DNA of 64,000 nucleotides, taken from the NCBI RefSeq assembly GCF_001418325.1, contig NZ_LIPN01000062.1:1-64000 (forward strand), in the 5' to 3' direction. Every line of letters begins with the position of its first letter. Within the stretch, counting starts at the first letter, position 1. Below are positions 2,194 to 14,849 of this stretch, piece by piece. The notes under the pieces were generated by a model. The model was not told the origin of the DNA. It ran no database searches and worked only from the letters and a program-made list of their open reading frames with translations. The DNA comes from Streptomyces atriruber (GTDB taxonomy: Bacteria > Actinomycetota > Actinomycetes > Streptomycetales > Streptomycetaceae). Both the position numbers and the translations under genes were made by a program.

Positions 2194-3793
2194 CCTCTCA
2201 GCTTGACTCTGTCGGGGATCTTGGAGTTCCGGGTGCGGCAGCACGGTCAACGGGCATGCTCGGGTAGTTCGGCCGACCGATGCAGCTGTCGAGGCGCCCG
2301 TTGTCCCTGCGCCCCCGTTCCGGTGAGCAAGTCCCTCCTCTGACTGCGCAGGTGGCGCGGGCGAGCAACTCGGTTGGTACGACGCCGATATGGGTGCGGG
2401 ATCGCCTCGATGGGCTGTGGCGTGACGAGGACTTCGCCGACTGGTACCCGCGGGACGGGCCTCCGGGGCTTTCGCCTGCTCAACTGGCCACCGTCTGTGT
2501 GCTGCAGTTCCTGTTCGGCCTGTCGGACCGGCAGGCCGCCGAGGCGGTCCGCTGCCGCATTGACTTCAAGTACGCGTTGGCGATGGAGCTGGACGATCCG
2601 GGCTTCCACTACAGTGTGCTGGCCGACTTTCGCGACCGTCTCACCGAGGGCGACCGTGCTGACCGCCTCCTCGACCTCGCGCTGGACCGCCTCAAGGAGG
2701 CCGGCCTGGTGCGTGAGCGCACCACGCAACGCACCGACTTCACCCATGTCCCGGCCGCGGTGCGCGACTTGACCCGCCTGGAGCTGGTCAATGAGGCGGT
2801 CCGCGCCGCACTCGAAGAAGTCGCCAGCACCTCCTCTCACCTGCTTGACGATCTGGTCGGCGAGGACTGGGGGCGCCGCTACGGCCGGCCGGTCCGCCTG
2901 GGCAAGAACCCCACCAGACCCAAGACCAGGATCCTCGCCACCGGAAACGACGCCGTCCGGCTCCTGGAACACCTCTACCGGCATGGGGCAGATCGCGTGT
3001 CTGGCCCTCAAGTCCAGGCCCTGCGGCAGATCGTGGTGCAGCACTACCACCGTGACGCCGCAGGGCACCTGCGCTGGCGCAGCGCCGAGAAAGAAGGCGG
3101 AGCCGGGTTGCCGCCCTCGTCCCGGGCGATCATCTCTCCCTACGACACCGCGGCCCGCTACGCACGGCACGGACACATCATCAGCTGGAAGGGCTTCGCC
3201 GCCCATCTCACCGAGACCTGTGCTCCGGACAGCCCCAACGTGATTACGGACGTGGCCACCACGGCGGCAACCACCCACGACAGCCGGGTCCTTCCCGGCA
3301 TTCACACCCGCCTGGCCCGCCGCGGACTGCTGCCCGCCGAGCACTTGGTCGACGGCGGCTACACCTCACTGATCCGCCTGGAGCAGGCCGCCCGCGAACA
3401 CCAGATCACTGTCAGCGGCCCGCTCACGGTCAACCCCACCCGCCAGCACCGCCGGGGCGACGGATTCGGCCGGGAAGACTTCCACATCGACTACGACCGC
3501 CACCAGGTGACCTGCCCGAATGGCCAGCGCGAGAGCTCCGCGAGCTGCAACTCCGCGTCCGCGCTGAACAGCAGACACCCGAGTGGAAAACCCGTTACGC
3601 AGTCCGCTCCGGCATCGAGGGCACCGTCAACGAGTTCGCCCACGGACATGGCATGCGCCGCTGCCGCTACCGAGGCCTCCGACCGCCTTCCAGACCTACC
3701 TAGACCAGCACCAGATCCCCCGGCCCAAGTCCTGGCGGACCCTCGGAACCTGACCCCGCTCATCAAGATCCCCGACAGAGCCAAGCTAAGAGG
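2194..3793. mobile_element. IS1182-family insertion sequence
   Basis: The element is bounded by 30-bp terminal inverted repeats, 2194-2223 and 3764-3793, that match at 28 of 30 positions; the inner 18 bp (CTCTGTCGGGGATCTTG region) are perfect. It holds one transposase gene, now broken. No convincing target duplication was found in the flanks (CGA on the left, CCAGC on the right). The ends are well preserved, so the element could still be mobilised in trans by a related intact transposase. Confidence 0.8.
2280..3753 (+). pseudogene. Broken IS1182-family transposase
   Basis: The N-terminal 400 residues read well as an IS1182-type DDE transposase: [10 protein letters not shown] and [11 protein letters not shown] at the start, [25 protein letters not shown], the first catalytic region (QRTDFTHV, where the family normally has DSTHV), the central [15 protein letters not shown] and HLVDGGYTS blocks, and VTCPNGQ. 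After codon 418 the frame shifts: the expected [29 protein letters not shown] is in another frame (about 3593-3675), and the family C-terminus [15 protein letters not shown] reads in a further frame ending at TGA 3751-3753. Part of the cysteine-rich region before the last Glu is also deleted. The gene therefore cannot make a full transposase. Confidence 0.85.
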
Positions 3794-3973
3794 CCAGCGC
3801 GGAACATAATCAACTCAAAGCTCCTAAAACGTAAAAAAATGTCTCAGACATCATCAGAGATGGGCAAACGCCGCTCGGTATTCCCAACGCACGGGCCGGT
3901 CTCCGGCACTGTCCTGCGGTCGGTGAGGTCCGTTGGTTCTGATGAATCCCCAGGTTCGGACACGTTGAAGGGA

Positions 3974-3987
3974 AACCCTATCGCCAT
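3974..3987 (+). promoter_or_regulatory. Putative LysR-type operator upstream of the organosulfur operon
   Basis: AACCCTATCGCCAT here is identical to 14827-14840, next to the LysR gene at 13838-14767. The site lies about 55-60 bp before the transcription start predicted from the promoter at 4002-4031, the usual activator position for LysR proteins. Six bases of a partial upstream arm (GACACG, 3959-3964) mirror the GATAGG arm seen at the LysR gene. Binding is inferred, not shown. Confidence 0.5.
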
Positions 3988-4001
3988 CCCGTCAATTGCT
4001 T

Positions 4002-4031
4002 TTCGACCTGGTGTGGCAACCTGGGTAAACT
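4002..4031 (+). promoter_or_regulatory. Putative promoter of the sfn/ssu operon
   Basis: TTCGAC (4002-4007) and TAAACT (4026-4031) are separated by 18 bp, an acceptable housekeeping sigma promoter. It would start transcription near 4038, about 65 nt ahead of the leader peptide. Confidence 0.35.
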
Positions 4032-4103
4032 TCTGGGCGCGGCGAGCAGAAGCTGACCAGGGGTGTCTGTGGCGCCCAATTGTTGCGAGGAGGTGACGTG
4101 TTG

Positions 4104-4190
4104 ATGAAAGAGCCCTCATGGCTTACTCAGAGACGTCATGTGGACCTCGGGCGTGTCTCCAGCGCCCTGTGTCGGCGCGCCGACCGGTAG
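4104..4190 (+). CDS. Putative cysteine-responsive leader peptide of the organosulfur operon
   Basis: A 28-codon ORF, ATG 4104 to TAG 4190, with a near-perfect ribosome binding site (GAGGAGGTGA, 4087-4096). Its product contains RRHVDLGRVSSALCRR, which has the hallmark Arg-Arg-His-Val-Asp-Leu and Ser-Ser-Ala-Leu-Cys pattern of the short 'putative leader peptides' found before sulfur assimilation and organosulfur genes in Streptomyces. In related actinobacteria, Cys codons in such leaders let the ribosome sense cysteine supply and attenuate the downstream operon. A 264-nt spacer separates it from the sfnG-like start, long enough for attenuator structures, though I could not pick out one convincing terminator/antiterminator pair by eye. 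Confidence 0.75.
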   Translation: MKEPSWLTQRRHVDLGRVSSALCRRADR

Positions 4191-4454
4191 CAAGGTCTCA
4201 TCTGACCTGCTTATCCCGAGCCGCCTATTTTCCTATTTCCCGGGGCCGGCCCACTTCTGCCGCCATTCTGGCGCCTCACCTTCTTGACGGCTTTCTCGAG
4301 GCATGCCCCAAACATTGCTTTCGTGCGCCGATTCTCCAGCTTCTAAGACGTGCGGAAACGTGTGCCGATGCCGTATTCACCTGCTCTTCCCGCGGAAGCG
4401 CCCACGTGCCCCGGGGACGCCGGCCCGCTCTTACAGACCCACTGGGAGTACCTC

Positions 4455-5561
4455 ATGCCCACCCCCTACCCTTCCGACCCGCTGCGTTTCGCCTACTGGG
4501 TCCCCAACGTCAGTGGCGGCCTGGTTACCAGCACCGTCGAGCAGCGCACCGACTGGAGCTACGACTACAACCGCGAACTGGCCGTTCTGGCCGAGAACAA
4601 CGGTTTTGACTACGCGCTCACTCAGGTCCGATACATGGCCAGTTATGGCGCCGAGTACCAGCACGAATCCACCTCCTTCAGCCTGGCGCTGCTGCTCGCC
4701 ACCGAGCGTCTGAAGGTCATCGCCGCCGTCCTCCCCGGTCTCTGGAATCCCGGCGTGCTGGCCAAGTTCGGAGCTACTGCGGACCAGTTGTCCGGTGGCC
4801 GGTTTGCGGTCAACGTCGTCAGCGGCTGGTTCAAGGGCGAGTTCACCGCGCTTGGCGAGCCCTGGCTGGAGCACGACGAACGCTACCGGCGGGCTGAGGA
4901 GTTCATCACTGCGCTCCGCAGTATTTGGACCCAGGACCATGCACGATTGGCGGGCGACTTCTACCGGATCCGCGACTTCTCGCTCAAGCCCAAGCCGGTC
5001 ACCTTCCCGTCGCGGCCGCACCCGGAAATCTTCCAAGGCGGCAACTCCACCGCGGCCCGCGCCATGGCCGGACGCGTATCCGACTGGTATTTCAGCAACG
5101 GTAAGGACTTCGACGGTGTCACGGAACAGCTCACCGACGTGCGGGCGTCGGCCGCGGCGGCCGGGCGGCCCGCGCCGCGTTTCGGGCTGAACGGCTTCAT
5201 GATCGCGCGGGACACCGAGACAGAGGCACGTGACGCGCTGCGGGAGATCATCGCCAAGGCGGACACCGAGGCCGTAGGCGGCTTCGGGGAAGCCGTGAAA
5301 CAGGCGGGTCAGTCCGCCGCCGACGGCAAGGGCATGTGGCAGGACTCCTCGTTCGAGGACCTCATCCAGTACAACGACGGGTTCCGTACGGGGCTGATCG
5401 GCACTCCGGAGCAGATCGCCAAACGCATCGTCTCCTACAAGCGCCTCGGCGTGGACCTTTTCCTCCTCGGATTCCTGCACTACCTGGAAGAGGTCGAGTA
5501 CTTCGGCCGGCGCGTCCTGCCGCTCGTGCGCGAGCTGGAAGCCCAGCTGCCCAACGAGTAG
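4455..5561 (+). CDS. sfnG: FMNH2-dependent dimethylsulfone monooxygenase (SfnG-like)
   Basis: A 368-residue luciferase-like monooxygenase (bacterial luciferase TIM barrel). It follows SfnG closely along its length: FAYWVPNVSGG at the start, FDYALTQVRYMASYGAE, HESTSFSLALLLATE, GGRFAVNVVSGWFKGEF, HPEIFQGGNS, FEDLIQYNDGFRTGLIGTPEQIAKR and FLHYLEEVEYFGRRVLPLVRELEAQ. SfnG oxidises dimethylsulfone to methanesulfinate using reduced FMN delivered by a partner reductase, which here is the next gene. ATG 4455 was chosen over 4350 because GGGAG lies 7 nt upstream and family members start just before the FAYWVPN block. First structural gene of a four-gene operon behind a Cys leader; expression is expected under sulfate or cysteine starvation. 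Confidence 0.92.
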   Translation: MPTPYPSDPLRFAYWVPNVSGGLVTSTVEQRTDWSYDYNRELAVLAENNGFDYALTQVRYMASYGAEYQHESTSFSLALLLATERLKVIAAVLPGLWNPGVLAKFGATADQLSGGRFAVNVVSGWFKGEFTALGEPWLEHDERYRRAEEFITALRSIWTQDHARLAGDFYRIRDFSLKPKPVTFPSRPHPEIFQGGNSTAARAMAGRVSDWYFSNGKDFDGVTEQLTDVRASAAAAGRPAPRFGLNGFMIARDTETEARDALREIIAKADTEAVGGFGEAVKQAGQSAADGKGMWQDSSFEDLIQYNDGFRTGLIGTPEQIAKRIVSYKRLGVDLFLLGFLHYLEEVEYFGRRVLPLVRELEAQLPNE

Positions 5562-5658
5562 GCGCAGCAACCAGTCCGAGCGGTGGTCTGACCGGCCCGC
5601 CCGGGCCGCTGGCCAATCCGTTTACTACCGCCGCCCCTTCAAGACCTAGGTGACCGCC

Positions 5659-6213
5659 ATGTCCACTGTCCTGTCCGTCTCCGGGAGTCCCTCCGCGACC
5701 TCCCGCACCGCCCGCTTGCTGCGACACCTGAACACCAGGCTCACCGACGACGGCCACCGAGTCCTGGAACTCGACGTGCGCACGTTGTCCGCCCAGGCGC
5801 TGTTCGGCGCCGACTTCCAGCACCCCGACATCGTCACCGTCACCGAGCTGTTCGCGCAGGCCGACGGCGTGATCATCGGAACGCCCGTCTACAAGGCCGC
5901 CTACTCCGGACTCCTGAAGTCGTTGCTCGACCTGCTGCCTCAGCACGCGCTGGCGGGCAAGACCGTGCTGCCGCTCGCCACCGGCGGCAGCACGGCCCAC
6001 GCCCTGGCCGTCGACTACGCGCTGCGGCCAGTGCTCTCCTCCATGGGCGCCGCGCACATCGTCCAGGGGTGGTTCGTCCCGGACCGACAACTCGACCTGC
6101 GGGAGGACGGCACGCTCGCCACTGAGCCGGCCACCACCGAGGCCCTGCACCGCGTCACCGACCAGTTCTCCAGCGCCCTCGGCCGGGCTCCACTGCTCGC
6201 CGCGGCGAGCTGA
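5659..6213 (+). CDS. NADPH-dependent FMN reductase (SsuE/MsuE family)
   Basis: A 184-residue flavodoxin-like protein. The phosphate-binding loop SVSGSPSATSRT sits at residues 6-17, GTPVYKAAYSGLLKSLLDLLP near residue 75 contacts flavin in the family, and a SsuE-type Gly-Gly-Ser turn (LATGGSTAHALAVDYALRP) follows. It supplies FMNH2 to the two luciferase-like monooxygenases encoded on either side. ATG 5659 is preferred to GTG 5650 because AGGTGA overlaps the latter and is well spaced for the former. It lies 97 nt after the sfnG-like gene and 22 nt before the next start, so it belongs to the same transcript. Confidence 0.88.
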   Translation: MSTVLSVSGSPSATSRTARLLRHLNTRLTDDGHRVLELDVRTLSAQALFGADFQHPDIVTVTELFAQADGVIIGTPVYKAAYSGLLKSLLDLLPQHALAGKTVLPLATGGSTAHALAVDYALRPVLSSMGAAHIVQGWFVPDRQLDLREDGTLATEPATTEALHRVTDQFSSALGRAPLLAAAS

Positions 6214-6235: not shown

Positions 6236-7471
6236 GTGACTACCCCCACCCCCACCACAGCGGCGCATCCGGACCAGCCCGCACCTGACCACGTTCACGT
6301 GATCACTGACGACGCCGAAGCGATCGCAGTGGCAGCCGCACTGGCCGACGCTTTCCGCCCCGGTGCGGCGGAACGAGACGCCCAGCGACAACTGCCGCAC
6401 GCCGAAATCGAGCAGCTCTCGTCAAGCGGCCTCCTCGGCATCACCGTGCCGCGGGCACACGGTGGTGCCGACGTCTCCGCCCGAACGCTGGCTGAGATCT
6501 TCCGACTGCTGGCCACCGCCGACCCCAGCATCGCCCAGATCCCACAGAGCCACTTCGTGTACGTCAACGTCTTGCGCGCCCAAGGCAGCCCTGGCCAGAA
6601 GGAGTTCTTCTTCCGCGAGGTGCTGACCGGGCGCCGCTTCGGCAACGCGCAGGCAGAGGCAGGCACCCGGCACACCCAAGACATCCGCACCCTCCTGGAA
6701 CCTGACGGCGACGGTGACTACATCCTGACCGGAACCAAGCACTACTGCACCGGCGCCCTGTTCGCCCATTGGATCCCGGTGCTGGCCCGCGGTGCCGAGG
6801 ACAAGCTGCACGTCGCATACGTACCGCGTGGCGCGCCCGGCGTGACGGTCGTCGACGACTGGGACGGCATGGGGCAACGCACCACCGCCAGCGGCACGGT
6901 CAGTCTCGACGGCGTCGCCGTACCGGCCGACCGCATCGTGGCCCACCACCTCACCTTCGAGGGCCCGCAACTGCACGGGGCGTTGGCCCAGTTGTTGCAT
7001 GCGGCCATCGACAGCGGTGCAGCCCAGGCAACACTGACCGAAGCGGCCGAGTTCGTCCGGACGAAGAGCCGCCCCTGGTTCGAAAGCGGCTCCGCCACGG
7101 CCGCCGAGGACCCGCTCCTCATCCAGCGCTTCGGCGCCCTCGAACTAAGAGTCCGGGCTGCGACGGCCCTCTTGGAGTCCGCGGCCCAGGCCGTGGACAC
7201 CGCCGCCGCCCGCCTCACCGACGACACAGCCGCCGAAGCGTCGATCGCGGTCGCCGCAGCGAAGGCGTACGCGGCAGAGACGGCCGTGGACACGGGAAGC
7301 GCGCTCTTCGAAGTGGCCGGCACCCGGGCCGCCCTGGACGGCCTCAACCTGCACCGGCACTGGCGCGACGCGCGCACCCACACGCTGCACGACCCGGTGC
7401 GCTGGAAGGTGCAGCACCTCGGCCGGTACGTCCTCAACGGCACCAAGCCGCCCCGACACGGTCTCTTGTGA
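6236..7471 (+). CDS. sfnB: SfnB-like acyl-CoA-dehydrogenase-fold flavoprotein of sulfur acquisition
   Basis: A 411-residue protein of the acyl-CoA dehydrogenase / DszC-type fold. Visible blocks are the N-terminal helical domain (PHAEIEQLSSSGLLGITVPRAHGG, residues 50-75), the FAD-binding middle region (GNAQAEAGTRHTQDI and a TGTKHYCTGALFAHW loop) and the C-terminal helix bundle with HRHWRDARTHTLHDP, where DszC- and SfnB-type proteins keep the conserved HxxWRDxRTHTLHD. Such enzymes are reduced-flavin dependent and lack an acyl-CoA base; the exact substrate of SfnB is not settled. Start at GTG 6236 behind AAGGAAC. Lies 22 nt after the FMN reductase and 49 nt before SsuD. Confidence 0.88.
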   Translation: MTTPTPTTAAHPDQPAPDHVHVITDDAEAIAVAAALADAFRPGAAERDAQRQLPHAEIEQLSSSGLLGITVPRAHGGADVSARTLAEIFRLLATADPSIAQIPQSHFVYVNVLRAQGSPGQKEFFFREVLTGRRFGNAQAEAGTRHTQDIRTLLEPDGDGDYILTGTKHYCTGALFAHWIPVLARGAEDKLHVAYVPRGAPGVTVVDDWDGMGQRTTASGTVSLDGVAVPADRIVAHHLTFEGPQLHGALAQLLHAAIDSGAAQATLTEAAEFVRTKSRPWFESGSATAAEDPLLIQRFGALELRVRAATALLESAAQAVDTAAARLTDDTAAEASIAVAAAKAYAAETAVDTGSALFEVAGTRAALDGLNLHRHWRDARTHTLHDPVRWKVQHLGRYVLNGTKPPRHGLL

Positions 7472-7520: not shown

Positions 7521-8675
7521 GTGAGCCTCACCTTCCACTGGTTCCTGCCGACCTACGGCGACAGCCGGCACATCGTCGGCGGCGGCCACGGCCTGCCCGC
7601 CGGTGTCGCGGGCGGGCAGCGCCCCGCCACCCTCGGCTACCTCACCCAAATCGCCCGCGCCGCCGAACAACTCGGCTTCGAAGGCGCCCTGACCCCCACC
7701 GGAGCCTGGTGCGAAGACGCCTGGCTCACCACGGCCATGCTCGCCCGGGAGACCGAGCACCTGAAATTCCTCATCGCTCTCCGGCCCGGCGATATCTCCC
7801 CCACCCTGGCCGCCCAGATGGCGGCCACCTTTCAGCGGCATGCACCCGGCCGGCTGCTCCTCAACATCGTCACCGGCGGCGAGAGCCACGAGCAGCGCGC
7901 GTACGGCGACTTCCTGGACAAGAACGCCCGCTACGCCCGTACCGGCGAGTTCCTGAGCATCGTGCGGGGCCTGTGGCAGGGACGGACAGTCGATTTCGAC
8001 GGGGAGCACCTGCGGGTCGAACAGGCGCGGTTGGCCCGTGTGCCTGCCCCCGTACCGCCCATCTACTTTGGCGGATCATCGGCGGCGGCGGGGGAGGTCG
8101 CTGCCCGCTTCAGCGACGTGTACTTGACCTGGGGCGAGCCGCCCGCGCAGGTTGCCGAGAAGATTGCCCGGATCCGCAAGCTTGCCGCCGACGCGGGGCG
8201 CACGGTGCGTTTCGGCATCCGGCTGCACGTGATGACACGGGACACCGCCGACCAGGCATGGGCCGAGGCCCGCCGCCTGCTGGACGGCTTCTCGCCGGAG
8301 GCGATCCGCGCTGTACAGGAAGGACTGGCCCGCAGCGAGTCCGAGGGACAGCGGCGGATGATGGCCCTGCACGGCGGCAGCACGGACGGACTGGAGGTCG
8401 CGCCCAACCTCTGGGCCGGCATCGGCCTGGTCCGCGGTGGCGCGGGCACCGCTCTGGTGGGCAGCCACGCCGAGGTAGCCGAGCGGATCGTCGAGTACCA
8501 GAAGCTCGGCATCGAGGAATTCGTCCTGTCCGGCCACCCACACCTCGAGGAAGCGTACTGGTTCGGGGAAGGGGTGCTGCCGCGCCTGGCAGAGGCAGGG
8601 CTGTGGTGGCGGCCGGCAGGTGTTGGGGAGCAGGGGGCAGGGACTGAGGTGCAGATCCCTTTCGCGGGACGGTGA
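7521..8675 (+). CDS. ssuD: FMNH2-dependent alkanesulfonate monooxygenase (SsuD)
   Basis: A 384-residue luciferase-like monooxygenase. SsuD signatures are FHWFLPTYGDSR at the start, GYLTQIARAAEQLGFEGALTPTGAWCEDAW, LIALRPG, GRLLLNIVTGGE, DKNARYARTGEFL, PPIYFGGSS and the C-terminal EFVLSGHPHLEEAYWFGEGVLP. SsuD cleaves the C-S bond of alkanesulfonates with O2 and FMNH2, giving sulfite and an aldehyde. GTG 7521 is placed by the family N-terminus. Last gene of the operon; a strong hairpin lies at 8789-8822. No ABC transporter genes (ssuABC) accompany it, so uptake must be encoded elsewhere. Confidence 0.92.
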   Translation: MSLTFHWFLPTYGDSRHIVGGGHGLPAGVAGGQRPATLGYLTQIARAAEQLGFEGALTPTGAWCEDAWLTTAMLARETEHLKFLIALRPGDISPTLAAQMAATFQRHAPGRLLLNIVTGGESHEQRAYGDFLDKNARYARTGEFLSIVRGLWQGRTVDFDGEHLRVEQARLARVPAPVPPIYFGGSSAAAGEVAARFSDVYLTWGEPPAQVAEKIARIRKLAADAGRTVRFGIRLHVMTRDTADQAWAEARRLLDGFSPEAIRAVQEGLARSESEGQRRMMALHGGSTDGLEVAPNLWAGIGLVRGGAGTALVGSHAEVAERIVEYQKLGIEEFVLSGHPHLEEAYWFGEGVLPRLAEAGLWWRPAGVGEQGAGTEVQIPFAGR

Positions 8676-9555: not shown

Positions 9556-9601
9556 GTGAAAGGGAATCCTTGTCACCGGATAGGAATTTCCTAATCGACT
9601 G
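9556..9601 (+). promoter_or_regulatory. Conserved regulatory element upstream of the DUF5133 gene
   Basis: GTGAAAGG (9556-9563), a GAATCC block and GGAATTTCCTAATCGACTG (9583-9601, 19 nt) recur with the same spacing on the opposite strand at 13123-13168, before an unrelated secreted-protein gene. The same head (GTGAAAGG, then CCCTATCGC and CGGAA) is present at 14817-14849. Similarity between the two upstream regions continues to the GCCGAGTCGCGC block near 9674-9685. Confidence 0.6.
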
Positions 9602-10381: not shown

Positions 10382-10912
10382 GTGAAGAAGAGTCACATTC
10401 GAATGGTTGCCGCTACTGCAATGACTGCAGTACTCTTCGGGTTTGCTGCACCTGTTGTCAACGCAGTCGAGGATCGCCGTGACCTGGCCGAGGTATCGCA
10501 GTCAGCAGAGTCGCTGCGGCCTACTCCCGACGATGTCCGCGACCTCATATCTCACATGAGGGAAGACGGCGCAGATGCCAAGCAGGTGCGGGAGTTCGAG
10601 CAGTATGCAAAGTGGCTCGAGAACCCTGACGCCCGCAAGGGCAGCGAGCGGATCCTGGGGTCGGGCACGATCGTTCGTAAGCTGATCGTCGCTGGACTGC
10701 GCCACGGTGGCGTGTGGGCCGGCAAGATCGTAGGAAAGCTCCACAAGAAGAGCGGCGCCTTCCTCAAGCGCAACGGCGGCAAGGTCGCTGACGCGATTGA
10801 GGACGTCGAGAGCTGGAGCGAAACTGCGTTGACCATCGCTCTGGTCAAGGCCGGTGTTCCAGCTGACATTGCCAAGGATCTCGCCACGGCCATCATGCTG
10901 GTCGCCGCCTGA
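10382..10912 (+). CDS. Secreted protein with cationic glycine-rich C-terminal domain (putative peptide effector)
   Basis: A 176-residue protein of no family I recognise. Residues 1-28 are a signal peptide (KK near the start, AATAMTAVLFGFAAP core, VNA cleavage). Residues 30-95 form an acidic, probably helical segment (many D/E; RPTPDDVRDLISHMRED). Residues 96-176 are cationic and glycine-rich, then hydrophobic: a Lys/Gly segment with GKIVGKLHKKSGAFLKRNGGK, then an amphipathic stretch ending DLATAIMLVAA. Signal, acidic pro-like region and cationic helical C-terminus together resemble precursors of secreted antimicrobial peptides, but this is inference. GTG 10382 has a weak purine-rich site upstream. 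A four-helix membrane protein starts 84 nt downstream, as in the convergent pair at 11853-13000. Confidence 0.55.
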   Translation: MKKSHIRMVAATAMTAVLFGFAAPVVNAVEDRRDLAEVSQSAESLRPTPDDVRDLISHMREDGADAKQVREFEQYAKWLENPDARKGSERILGSGTIVRKLIVAGLRHGGVWAGKIVGKLHKKSGAFLKRNGGKVADAIEDVESWSETALTIALVKAGVPADIAKDLATAIMLVAA

Positions 10913-12376: not shown

Positions 12377-13000
12377 CTACAGGCACGCCTCTGCCAGTGC
12401 GGGGAGTCCCGTGGAGTTGACTATGAGGTTAGCAATGTCCTCGTCGATGCCAGTGGGGCGCTTCTTGTGCTTTATCCAAGCCCAAACAGCTTTGATCACC
12501 TTCTTACCCCCCTTGGCGATCTTGTAGACCTTGGCGACTCCGATCGCGTTCTCAGCGGAAAGCTTTGCCACCCCAGCCGCGCACTGGAACCATCCCCGCG
12601 TTGCGGGTTCTGCACTAGCAGCCTGGTTCAGAAAATCTGCCAACTCCTGCTGCGCCCCATGGTCACCGGCCTCGATACGCTGAATGAGCGAATCGGGAAT
12701 TGAACCAATAATGTCGAACGCTTGCTGGAGTGCGGCCACTCCCTCCTCGTCGCTGACGCCATCAAGGCGACCGGAGCGAATGAGGGCAGAGGTTGCATCT
12801 CCGGTTGACTTCCGTACCTCGATACGGATTACGGAATCCTGCAGACTCTGCAGCGCATCAACAGATGCTGCCGCCTGCGGCGTCTTCTCTTTCTCTTGCG
12901 TTCGATCGGCGGCAGCGGCTGCCCCGGAGGCAGCGGTGCCAATCATGGCTGCGGCGACAAGAGTGGCAACTCCTGCCGCGACAAGGCGACGGTGAGCCAT
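12377..13000 (-). CDS. Secreted protein with cationic C-terminal domain (second putative peptide effector)
   Basis: A 207-residue exported protein. ATG 13000, behind GAGAGAAC, gives a standard signal peptide (MAHRRLVAAGVATLVAAAMIG, cleavage near AAAAADR). An acidic helical region of about 110 residues follows (LQSLQDSVIRIEV, SDEEGVAALQQAFDIIGS, GAQQELADFLNQ). The last 65 residues are cationic, between two cysteines: CAAGVAKLSAENAIGVAKVY, then KIAKGGKKVIKAVWAWIKHKK, ending with EACL. The plan is the same as in 10382-10912, with no evident identity, suggesting analogous or distantly related products. The two Cys could form a disulfide enclosing the cationic helix. Codon use is more AT-tolerant than in core genes. 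Confidence 0.55.
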   Translation of the reverse strand: MAHRRLVAAGVATLVAAAMIGTAASGAAAAADRTQEKEKTPQAAASVDALQSLQDSVIRIEVRKSTGDATSALIRSGRLDGVSDEEGVAALQQAFDIIGSIPDSLIQRIEAGDHGAQQELADFLNQAASAEPATRGWFQCAAGVAKLSAENAIGVAKVYKIAKGGKKVIKAVWAWIKHKKRPTGIDEDIANLIVNSTGLPALAEACL

Positions 13001-13122
13001 GTTCTCTCGCACAACAGTCCTTTTGCTCTGAGTTCAAGCGCGACTCGGCAACGCGTCGGTCCAGTCCGCAGTCGCCACAGATCGCCTCTATTGCGAGAGG
13101 ACATTACTTACATCTTCAGCCC

Positions 13123-13168
13123 CAGTCGATTAGGAAATTCCGTTATAGCGATAGGGATTGCCTTTCAC
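13123..13168 (-). promoter_or_regulatory. Conserved regulatory element upstream of the secreted-protein gene at 12377-13000
   Basis: Read on the minus strand from 13168, GTGAAAGG, AATCCCTATCGC, then GGAATTTCCTAATCGACTG (13141-13123). The 19-nt block is identical to 9583-9601. It lies about 125-170 bp before the start codon. The two upstream regions remain alignable down to the GCCGAGTCGCGC block (13050-13039). Confidence 0.6.
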
Positions 13169-13837: not shown

Positions 13838-14767
13838 TCAGAGCTGTTTGGCTCCGGCGTGTGGGTTCGTGCGCTGTTCTATGGCCCGGCGTATGAGGAT
13901 GGCGTGTAGAGCGTGTGCGGCTGGCGGCACCGATTGTGTGTGGCGTCGTTGAATCATGACGCGAAGTTCGGTGGCGTCGTCTGCGAGAGGGCGGTAGGTG
14001 ATGGTGCCGCTGCGTTCCAGTGGGTCGCCGTGCACGCTGTAGTCGGGCAGGACGGTGGTGCCGAGTCCCTCGGCGACCATGAGTTTACCCATTTCGGCGC
14101 CGTCGGCCGAGTAGGAGAAGGCTGGTGCTCTGCCGCTGAGGAGCCGGTGGACATAACGGTGCATGACGTAGCCGGCTCGCATGGCGATCAGAGGCTGAGC
14201 CAGTAGGTCGGCGACGGTAACTGTGCTGAGTGCGGCCAGTGGGCTGTCCTGGCGCATGCAGACGACTGGGCGTCCGCGGAGCAACTCGGTGGTGTGCAGG
14301 CCGGGCGGAAGGTCGTCATCGCGGAGATAGCTGACGAGCCCGAGGTCGAATCCGCCCTCGGCGAGGTGTTGTTGGATACCGTCGTGCCGGTCTGCGATTA
14401 CTTCCACAGGGGTGGATGGGTGGGTGGTGTGGAACTCGCGGATGGCTGGTGTCAGGAGGGTAACGGTGGCCGCGTTGACCGTACCCAGTCGCAGTGTGCG
14501 GCCGCTGTGGTGCTGCTCGCCAGCTGCTCGGCGCAGACGGTCGACTGCGTCCAGTACCGCGGCGATGTGCGGCAGCAGTTCGCGTCCCTCGTAACTGATC
14601 TTTGAACCGGACCGTTTGCGTTCCAGGAGCTCCACTCCCAGTTCCCGCTCCAGTTTGCGTAGCGTCTCACCCAATGCCGGCTGGGACAGGTGCAGTTCTT
14701 CCGCAGCGCGACGTAGTGACCCCAGGCGTGTGACTGCCTCCAGGTATTCCAACTGTTCCACGCGCAT
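13838..14767 (-). CDS. LysR-family transcriptional regulator
   Basis: A 309-residue LysR protein. The N-terminal winged helix is clear (EQLEYLEAVTRLGSLRRAAEELHLSQPALGETLRKLERELG, residues 4-44, cited in parts), followed by a linker helix and a periplasmic-binding-like effector domain (LRLGTVNAATVTLLTPAIREF; DLGLVSYLRDDDLPPGL; VAEGLGTTVLPDYSV). ATG 14767 has GGAGG at a good distance. Upstream, at 14812-14840, lies an inverted repeat GATAGG-N12-CCTATC whose right arm is embedded in a 14-nt sequence identical to 3974-3987 in front of the organosulfur operon. It is therefore the best candidate to regulate that operon and itself. LysR activators of sulfonate genes (Cbl, CysB, SsuR) give precedent, but effector and targets are inferred. 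Confidence 0.85.
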   Translation of the reverse strand: MRVEQLEYLEAVTRLGSLRRAAEELHLSQPALGETLRKLERELGVELLERKRSGSKISYEGRELLPHIAAVLDAVDRLRRAAGEQHHSGRTLRLGTVNAATVTLLTPAIREFHTTHPSTPVEVIADRHDGIQQHLAEGGFDLGLVSYLRDDDLPPGLHTTELLRGRPVVCMRQDSPLAALSTVTVADLLAQPLIAMRAGYVMHRYVHRLLSGRAPAFSYSADGAEMGKLMVAEGLGTTVLPDYSVHGDPLERSGTITYRPLADDATELRVMIQRRHTQSVPPAAHALHAILIRRAIEQRTNPHAGAKQL

Positions 14768-14811: not shown

Positions 14812-14849
14812 GATAGGTGAAAGGTGAACCCTATCGCCATATCGGAAAT
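14812..14849 (+). promoter_or_regulatory. Putative LysR autoregulatory site and copy of the island element
   Basis: GATAGG (14812-14817) and CCTATC (14830-14835) form an inverted repeat with 12 bp between. AACCCTATCGCCAT (14827-14840) is identical to 3974-3987. GTGAAAGG (14817-14824), CCCTATCGC, ATA and CGGAA match the element at 13168-13136 (minus strand) with equal spacing. Position is 45-82 bp before the LysR start. Confidence 0.55.

Follow-up and report, generated by a model that had tools for sequence, protein, structure and literature searches.

In the accessible parts of the literature, cysteine leader open reading frames (ORFs) have been predicted in mycobacteria (PMC1262725, PMC4633059), leaderless polycysteine attenuators have been tested there (Canestrari 2020, via PMC9031893, PMC9094748, PMC13236596 and PMC13091356), and release of the Shine-Dalgarno (SD) sequence has been reported for these polycysteine leaders (PMC13236596, PMC13091356). 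The cys leader ORFs of Mycobacterium, P. acnes and B. longum carry runs of Cys codons near the stop and, like the leader described here, lack a terminator; the accessible text of that paper (PMC1262725) names no Streptomyces cys leader. Upstream of cysS in Rhodobacterales, uORFC-8-2 likewise places Cys codons in a leader ORF, in tandem and with UGC dominant, and has an intrinsic terminator, according to the accessible part of PMC8632094.

A stretch of 64,000 nucleotides from Streptomyces atriruber (contig NZ_LIPN01000062.1, positions 1 to 64,000, hereafter the window) contains a leader ORF whose closest kin are these mycobacterial polycysteine attenuators. Both have a short ORF with one or more Cys codons before a sulfur operon, and a motif in common; the mycobacterial elements are leaderless and hold a Cys tract, whereas the window leader appears to be SD-led and holds a single Cys codon, and SD release, reported for the former, is predicted only weakly for the window's own RNA. 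That single codon also sets it apart from the Cys runs of Mycobacterium, P. acnes and B. longum; from uORFC-8-2 it differs in the UGU fixed across its family and in the terminator, none having been found in the window copy. Trp-type transcription attenuators combine an intrinsic terminator with a run of regulatory codons, neither of which was found for the window leader. The nascent-chain residues conserved as amino acids that mark arrest peptides are found here at L-16, R-13, H-11, D-9, L-8 and R-6, counted from the Cys codon.

The preliminary description had placed a 28-codon ORF with a near-consensus ribosome-binding site 264 nt (leader stop to sfnG start) ahead of sfnG, and both the coordinates and the AGGAGG were verified (Table 1). 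The ATG is retained in the five closest aligned relatives (L051, L052, L058, L120 and L124), from some of which the GTG and the TTG just 5' of it are each absent, and a purine-rich site occurs at the AGGAGG position in close relatives too. The peptide has one Cys codon and no Cys tract. Upstream, all eight aligned sfnG upstream regions agree in the -35 element of a likely promoter and six in its -10 element, the remaining two having TACGCT. The putative -10 is some 72 nt 5' of the ATG, and together with the AGGAGG this speaks against a leaderless transcript. A consensus sigma-70 scan found no promoter for the leader region. Downstream, the four genes of the operon run on the same strand, separated by gaps of 88, 22 and 49 nt.

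Table 1. Coordinates of the leader, its putative control elements and the downstream genes in the window.
Feature	Position	Strand	Basis and details
Operator-like block TGAAGGGAAACCCTATCGCC, dyad AGGG-N3-CCCT, candidate LysR site	3966-3985	+	Alignment
Likely promoter, -35 TCGACC (4003-4008), 17-nt spacer, -10 TAAACT (4026-4031)	4003-4031	+	Alignment, chosen by eye
AGGAGG, ribosome-binding site of the leader ORF	4088-4093	+	Sequence; 10 nt ahead of the ATG
Leader peptide ORF, MKEPSWLTQRRHVDLGRVSSALCRRADR	4104-4190	+	ATG start, TAG stop at 4188-4190, 28 codons
CUCC in Val-Ser codons, predicted partner of the sfnG SD	4157-4160	+	Partition-function fold of the window, P ~0.65
Sensor codon UGU (Cys23)	4170-4172	+	Next base C at 4173
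Untranslated leader-sfnG spacer, C-rich	4191-4443	+	37% C, 24% G (composition of 4191-4437)
sfnG Shine-Dalgarno GGGAG	4444-4448	+	Sequence; GGAG-type sites there in relatives
sfnG, dimethylsulfone monooxygenase	4455-5561	+	TIGR04021, 616 bits (cut-off 383)
ssuE-like FMN reductase	5650-6213	+	TIGR03567, 220 bits (cut-off 164)
sfnB-family sulfur acquisition oxidoreductase	6236-7471	+	TIGR04022, 563 bits (cut-off 431)
ssuD-like alkanesulfonate monooxygenase	7521-8675	+	TIGR03565, 462 bits (under cut-off 518); PF00296
Intact lysR gene	13838-14767	-	ORF; 71% identical over 306 aa to relatives' divergent lysR

Judged by its profile score, the leader is a new member of a known family, NCBIfam NF042934 ('putative leader peptide'): the peptide scores 34.7 bits where the cut-off is 27 (E 9.5e-9), with residues 7-23 aligned to positions 3-19 of a 19-position profile, and the leader was matched in a whole-genome search at E 7.8e-7. 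NCBI thus has a model by which the ORF, called unannotated in the preliminary description, would receive a name. It has the family's motif, terminal Cys included, in a short ORF before a sulfur gene, and no essential difference separates it from the other members; the residue before the core Arg is Gly in the window and Cys in 63 of 221 leaders. Two Cys-rich leader models of NCBIfam gave about 24 bits each, under their cut-off of 45; these models, NF042936 and NF042933, we take to be probably the mycobacterial leaderless polycysteine attenuators.

The family is matched over cut-off in all 61 genomes of the genus that were searched and in none of 14 control genomes at E 0.001, and a sample of the phylum yielded it in 28 of 396 genomes and 8 of 236 genera (E up to 0.001). 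The S. atriruber genome itself has six matches over cut-off, and another two that fall short of it yet contain the full motif; the seven other leaders (L001, L002 and L004-L008, five of them over cut-off) precede different genes, L008 a flavin-reductase-like one. Named by representatives, the genes that follow family leaders are mostly sulfur genes: sulfatase (PF00884), cysteine dioxygenase (PF05995), sfnG, nitrite/sulfite reductase (PF01077), CysK/M-type cysteine synthase (TIGR01136, over cut-off), rhodanese-type sulfurtransferase (PF00581), a dicarboxylate-family symporter (PF00375), flavin reductase (PF01613) and an SfnB/DszC-like oxidoreductase. The earlier suggestion of an actinobacterial leader-peptide pattern before sulfur genes is borne out by the family score, by the sfnG downstream and by the other sulfur genes after relatives, and the use of dimethylsulfone in Streptomyces is thereby placed under a leader family found before many unrelated sulfur genes. 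Three leaders, L166 (rc 265), L268 (248) and L262 (254), keep R.HIDL.RV.SA and end in a stop, a stop and Gly instead of Cys; they precede one gene family, whose L166 member matches the GST C-terminal domain (PF13410), and this variant may not be cysteine-sensing.

The Cys codon, to which the preliminary description had drawn attention, turned out to be the most constrained element of the family. The collection comprised 238 matches, of which 226 were unique, and in 221 of these the final motif column is Cys; it left out L009-L020 (weak matches in the own genome) and 20 loci without a match over 12 bits, and the five unique leaders outside the 221 are L166 and L268 (stop), L262 (Gly), L259 (ends CLG) and L186 (doubtful). 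The conserved codon is TGT in 218 of the 221 distinct leaders and TGC in three, which are polycysteine-type and each have a TGT two codons earlier. Among Cys codons of 184 high-GC3 background ORFs, TGC outnumbers TGT by 188 to 35 (16% TGT of 223), and within the same leaders a Cys at -7 is TGC in 61 of 63 cases and TGT in two, while those at -2, at -1 and after the sensor are mixed. The base that follows the sensor TGT is C in 137 leaders, T in 72, A in nine and G in none (n=218), against a background in which 43% of codons are followed by G. The rule is more than shared ancestry, because it holds among representatives of identity clusters (built on the preceding 51 nt), with TGT in 69 of 71 at 90%, 39 of 40 at 80%, 35 of 35 at 75% and 26 of 26 at 70%, and with G after TGT at none of these levels.

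The peptide is conserved in a different manner. Leu-16, Arg-13, Asp-9, Leu-8 and Arg-6 are each retained in 213-221 of 221 leaders (Arg-13 in 221 and Arg-6 in 218, with mixed CGN and AGG codons) and His-11 in 201, and the codons of these residues vary, first positions included (CGN/AGG, CTN/TTG). The alignments thus demonstrate two conserved layers, the peptide R-x-H-V-D-L-x-R and the codon UGU without a following G. The two tRNA-Cys genes found among 62 tRNA matches (61 typed) both have the anticodon GCA, so that UGU would be read by G-U wobble, in an assembly of 703 contigs where a further tRNA-Cys gene could be missed. When a wobble codon is followed by a pyrimidine, decoding is expected to slow down. 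Hypomodified tRNAs appear to be more sensitive to 3' context, going by reference titles in PMC11805395. Tuning is the best reading of the UGU rule: one codon and a nascent-chain motif could together replace the codon runs of classical attenuators. It was not found in the literature searched, which leaves subscription papers largely outside, so it may be in print; as far as the searches reach it is new, and it is unexplained. As a sharp, family-wide regularity it is directly testable, and it offers a clean test of wobble decoding and 3' codon context as a metabolic sensor.

Leader and sfnG are conserved together. SfnG loci were collected by the protein and not by the leader: SfnG (E up to 1e-120) occurs in 47 of 199 genomes of the genus, and the best 80 loci of a public genome collection were added, giving 110 loci in which some places are present twice. 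A model seeded without sfnG leaders was then run over up to 900 nt upstream of each gene (E up to 1); it found a sense-strand leader in 87 of the 110 loci, the weakest at 5.6 bits (L136), no antisense match in any of the 110, and a leader in all 80 Streptomyces and Actinacidiphila loci. The 23 loci without a match include all those of Actinomadura, Microbispora, Nocardioides, Gordonia, Dietzia and Amycolatopsis among the 110, as well as L153 (Actinokineospora), in which a regular expression recovered a divergent leader. By regular expression, 87 sfnG loci with a leader yielded 81 distinct leader-to-gene sequences. Found regardless of their codon, the sfnG leaders have TGT in 81 of 81 distinct sequences. 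If repeats are counted and five leaders that precede a different gene are included, all 92 leaders at loci found only through SfnG have it. Four of the six Actinomadura loci (L128, L129, L132, L135) and L155 of Pseudonocardia have a leader just behind sfnG, near 4160-4215 there, and this leader precedes an acyl-CoA-dehydrogenase-like gene, SfnB/DszC-like in L155.

The ORF, an NF042934 member, probably gauges cysteine in cis on the sfnG-ssuE-sfnB-ssuD mRNA, and we regard it as a likely cysteine-gauging leader. A ribosome would translate the leader on this mRNA and, when cysteinyl-tRNA is short, would wait at the single UGU (Cys23), whereupon expression of the downstream operon would rise; with ample cysteine, the presumed signal, leader translation would be completed and expression would fall. 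In the least certain step, the stall would act by freeing a sequestered ribosome-binding site, as in the mycobacterial polycysteine leaders. Ribosomes, and not a regulator protein alone, may in this way coordinate a sulfur network. By classical standards, however, one Cys codon is a weak sensor. A tentative and rather doubtful extension supposes that UGU wobble, the missing G after it and the exit-tunnel motif make the single Cys codon the slowest step, with the same codons doubling as an anti-SD sequence in part of the family; such a one-codon sensor could respond to the condition of tRNA-Cys itself, such as the sulfur-dependent ms2i6A37 modification, besides its charging.

The conserved peptide invites another reading, in which RxHVDLxR stops the ribosome from within the exit tunnel in response to a metabolite (cysteine, sulfide or another), with TnaC as the model, and UGU does no more than fix the position. 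From 6 to 16 codons ahead of the sensor, residues are indeed conserved as amino acids while their codons vary, and the three leaders upstream of a GST-like gene family retain the peptide but end in a stop or Gly. A pure arrest peptide, however, needs no fixed synonymous codon, and yet UGU is fixed; this form of control appears somewhat improbable.

Of the cysteine-dependent attenuation proposed earlier, the constraint on the Cys codon is borne out; the codon is single and not part of a run, and a scan of 3810-4480 gave no intrinsic terminator (shuffled sequence would give 0.8), so that classical transcription attenuation at the sfnG leader is unlikely. A search for known RNA families gave two sub-threshold matches only. 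Without an intrinsic terminator, Rho might serve instead, loading on the naked C-rich spacer before sfnG once the ribosome has gone, with a stall altering its access. Rho has been proposed for mycobacterial cys leaders in the accessible part of PMC1262725, and the C/G ratio of the spacer is 1.6-1.9 in seven of eight gene groups (1.37 for SseA) as compared with about 1.06 in the sequence preceding 129 leaders. C-richness is also seen, however, in the gap between sfnG and ssuE, where there is no leader (43% C, 29% G), and a ribosome at UGU would shield only a short part of a 250-nt spacer, which makes protection by stalling hard to explain; Rho-dependent attenuation is accordingly an unlikely account.

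SD release is favoured over both Rho-dependent and intrinsic termination as the way in which a cysteine gauge would act, tentatively so for the window copy. A 31-nt, ribosome-sized block was slid along the 81 distinct leader-sfnG RNAs and SD accessibility was predicted. With the block over the Cys codon (offsets -16 to +14), accessibility gained a mean of +0.08 to +0.12, as against +0.05 at offset -22 and -0.00 to +0.03 elsewhere, and gains above 0.1 were seen in 30-33 of 81 RNAs with the codon covered, in 17 at -22 and in 3-13 at other offsets. The effect comes largely from one sfnG clade (SASC), in which UCC-UGU-UGC of the leader complements ACAGGAG and its flank over up to 11 bp. Measured against a synonymous-codon null, real sfnG leaders gained 0.112 versus 0.034, and 21 of 80 beat all 12 shuffles where 6.2 were expected. 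Cysteine dioxygenase leaders did not beat the null by this count (1 of 16, 1.2 expected); their SD is predicted to be paired (~0.9) with nucleotides +8 to +12, and for 7 of the 16 it is less exposed than in any of the 12 recoded versions.

Among the other gene groups, clusters 1-6 and 8 have 122 members, of which the 96 with a placeable gene start were folded. The block scan covered clusters 1, 2, 3, 5, 6 and 8, not 4; it showed no effect in the cysM, SirA and LLM groups. By local duplex energy, four of ten groups (the sfnG SASC clade, cysteine dioxygenase, SirA-type reductase and LLM oxidoreductase) have their best anti-SD stretch on the sensor codon or adjacent to it, and there is no such peak at the codon in the cysO-cysM, sulfatase, SseA, symporter and non-SASC sfnG groups, the window clade included. 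The cysM group has an equally sharp peak (z -3.5) at -39 to -26, away from the codon, and anti-SD peaks alone therefore prove little. Gene-specific pairing of leader and SD was considered as a general rule and rejected: in cross-paired duplex energies sfnG, SirA, cysM and others were not specific, and only cysteine dioxygenase clearly was, at -24.4 when matched. Combining its leaders with the genes of other groups gave -12.3 to -18.5, and combining its gene with leaders from elsewhere gave -14.8 to -19.3. An ungapped-helix score gave 18.7 for matched sfnG pairs versus 17.4 (sd 0.28) for cross-paired ones, a difference driven by one clade.

Folding from the leader to sfnG had been put forward as a check, and for the window it came out divided. 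The predicted pairing of CUCC with the sfnG SD speaks for release, and predicted SD accessibility rises from 0.07 to about 0.20 on stalling; the gain is not specific to the codon, as some blocks elsewhere do as much, and in L051, a relative 93% identical, the fold shows neither the CUCC/SD effect nor a stall gain. The window's own best local anti-SD duplex, at -9 to +4, covers the sensor codon. Across the eight sequences of its clade the mean best stretch lies 36-55 nt after the Cys codon, at +24 or beyond in six, and at the codon in the window alone, and RNAalifold found no convincing conserved structure in this clade. The folds thus support SD release in part of the family, and for the window's own RNA the model lends it weak support.

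The same complementarity raises the question of whether UGU is fixed for RNA pairing, as one strand of an anti-SD helix with ACA beside GGAG, and not for decoding. The CUCCUGUUGC of SASC sfnG leaders is complementary to GCAACAGGAG over 6-11 bp; L074 and L111 carry a matching two-sided change (UGUCG/CGACA), the SD flank of the cysM group is ACAGGAG in 33 of 36, and replacing UGU by UGC in silico cuts the sfnG stall gain from 0.112 to 0.084. Five SASC leaders (L065, L107, L115, L118 and L119), on the other hand, carry a C change without a matching one, UGU is as fixed where the SD has no ACA (the window clade, the MKRQ clade, cysteine dioxygenase and LLM), and UGC barely alters the gain of cysteine dioxygenase (0.239 versus 0.247). 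Pairing as the reason for the fixed codon is, on these grounds, distinctly unlikely. That 4104-4190 is a chance ORF of no function, an idea with its small size as the sole point in its favour, is hardly credible in view of the family score, the co-conservation with sfnG and the codon rule.

Beside a cysteine gauge, the locus may have a second input. The preliminary description had placed a LysR site upstream of the leader; an operator-like block does stand there, sharing AAGG-N3-ACCCTA with all eight aligned sfnG upstream regions, and 67 of 81 distinct relatives have a divergent lysR, recognised by its N-terminal motif, that starts next to the leader, 200-286 nt 5' of the Cys codon. The window is among the other 14, its own lysR place being occupied by an IS1182-type copy and an apparent lysR remnant. 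The block is a likely LysR operator. The T-N11-A pattern was discarded as evidence for such a site, as its 1837 occurrences in the window make it uninformative. An intact lysR gene, about 10 kb from the leader (Table 1), may still supply a LysR input in trans; the next best relative of the divergent lysR in the genome has 33% identity, and the gene's matches are to the LysR family, none of the 25 listed exceeding the cut-off of a named subfamily.

The IS1182-type element occupies 2194-3809, where relatives have lysR, with inverted repeats of 41 nt (2194-2234 and 3753-3793); its transposase ORF (2280-3809) scores 214 bits, under the cut-off of 270, and the copy is therefore probably decayed. 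A degraded stretch near 3855-3892 on the minus strand resembles, by eye and from its frames, the 5' end of lysR. The operator-like block GAAAGGNNAACCCTATCGCC has three matches in the window where 0.02 are expected, at 3966-3985 before sfn, at 14819-14838 before lysR and at 13147-13166 (minus strand) before an ORF with a signal-like start (12377-13012); an inverted repeat partner at 9556-9601 precedes another ORF with a signal-like start, at 10382, and neither ORF has an NCBIfam match. By sequence, the copies possibly mark a local LysR regulon or are shared promoter remnants.
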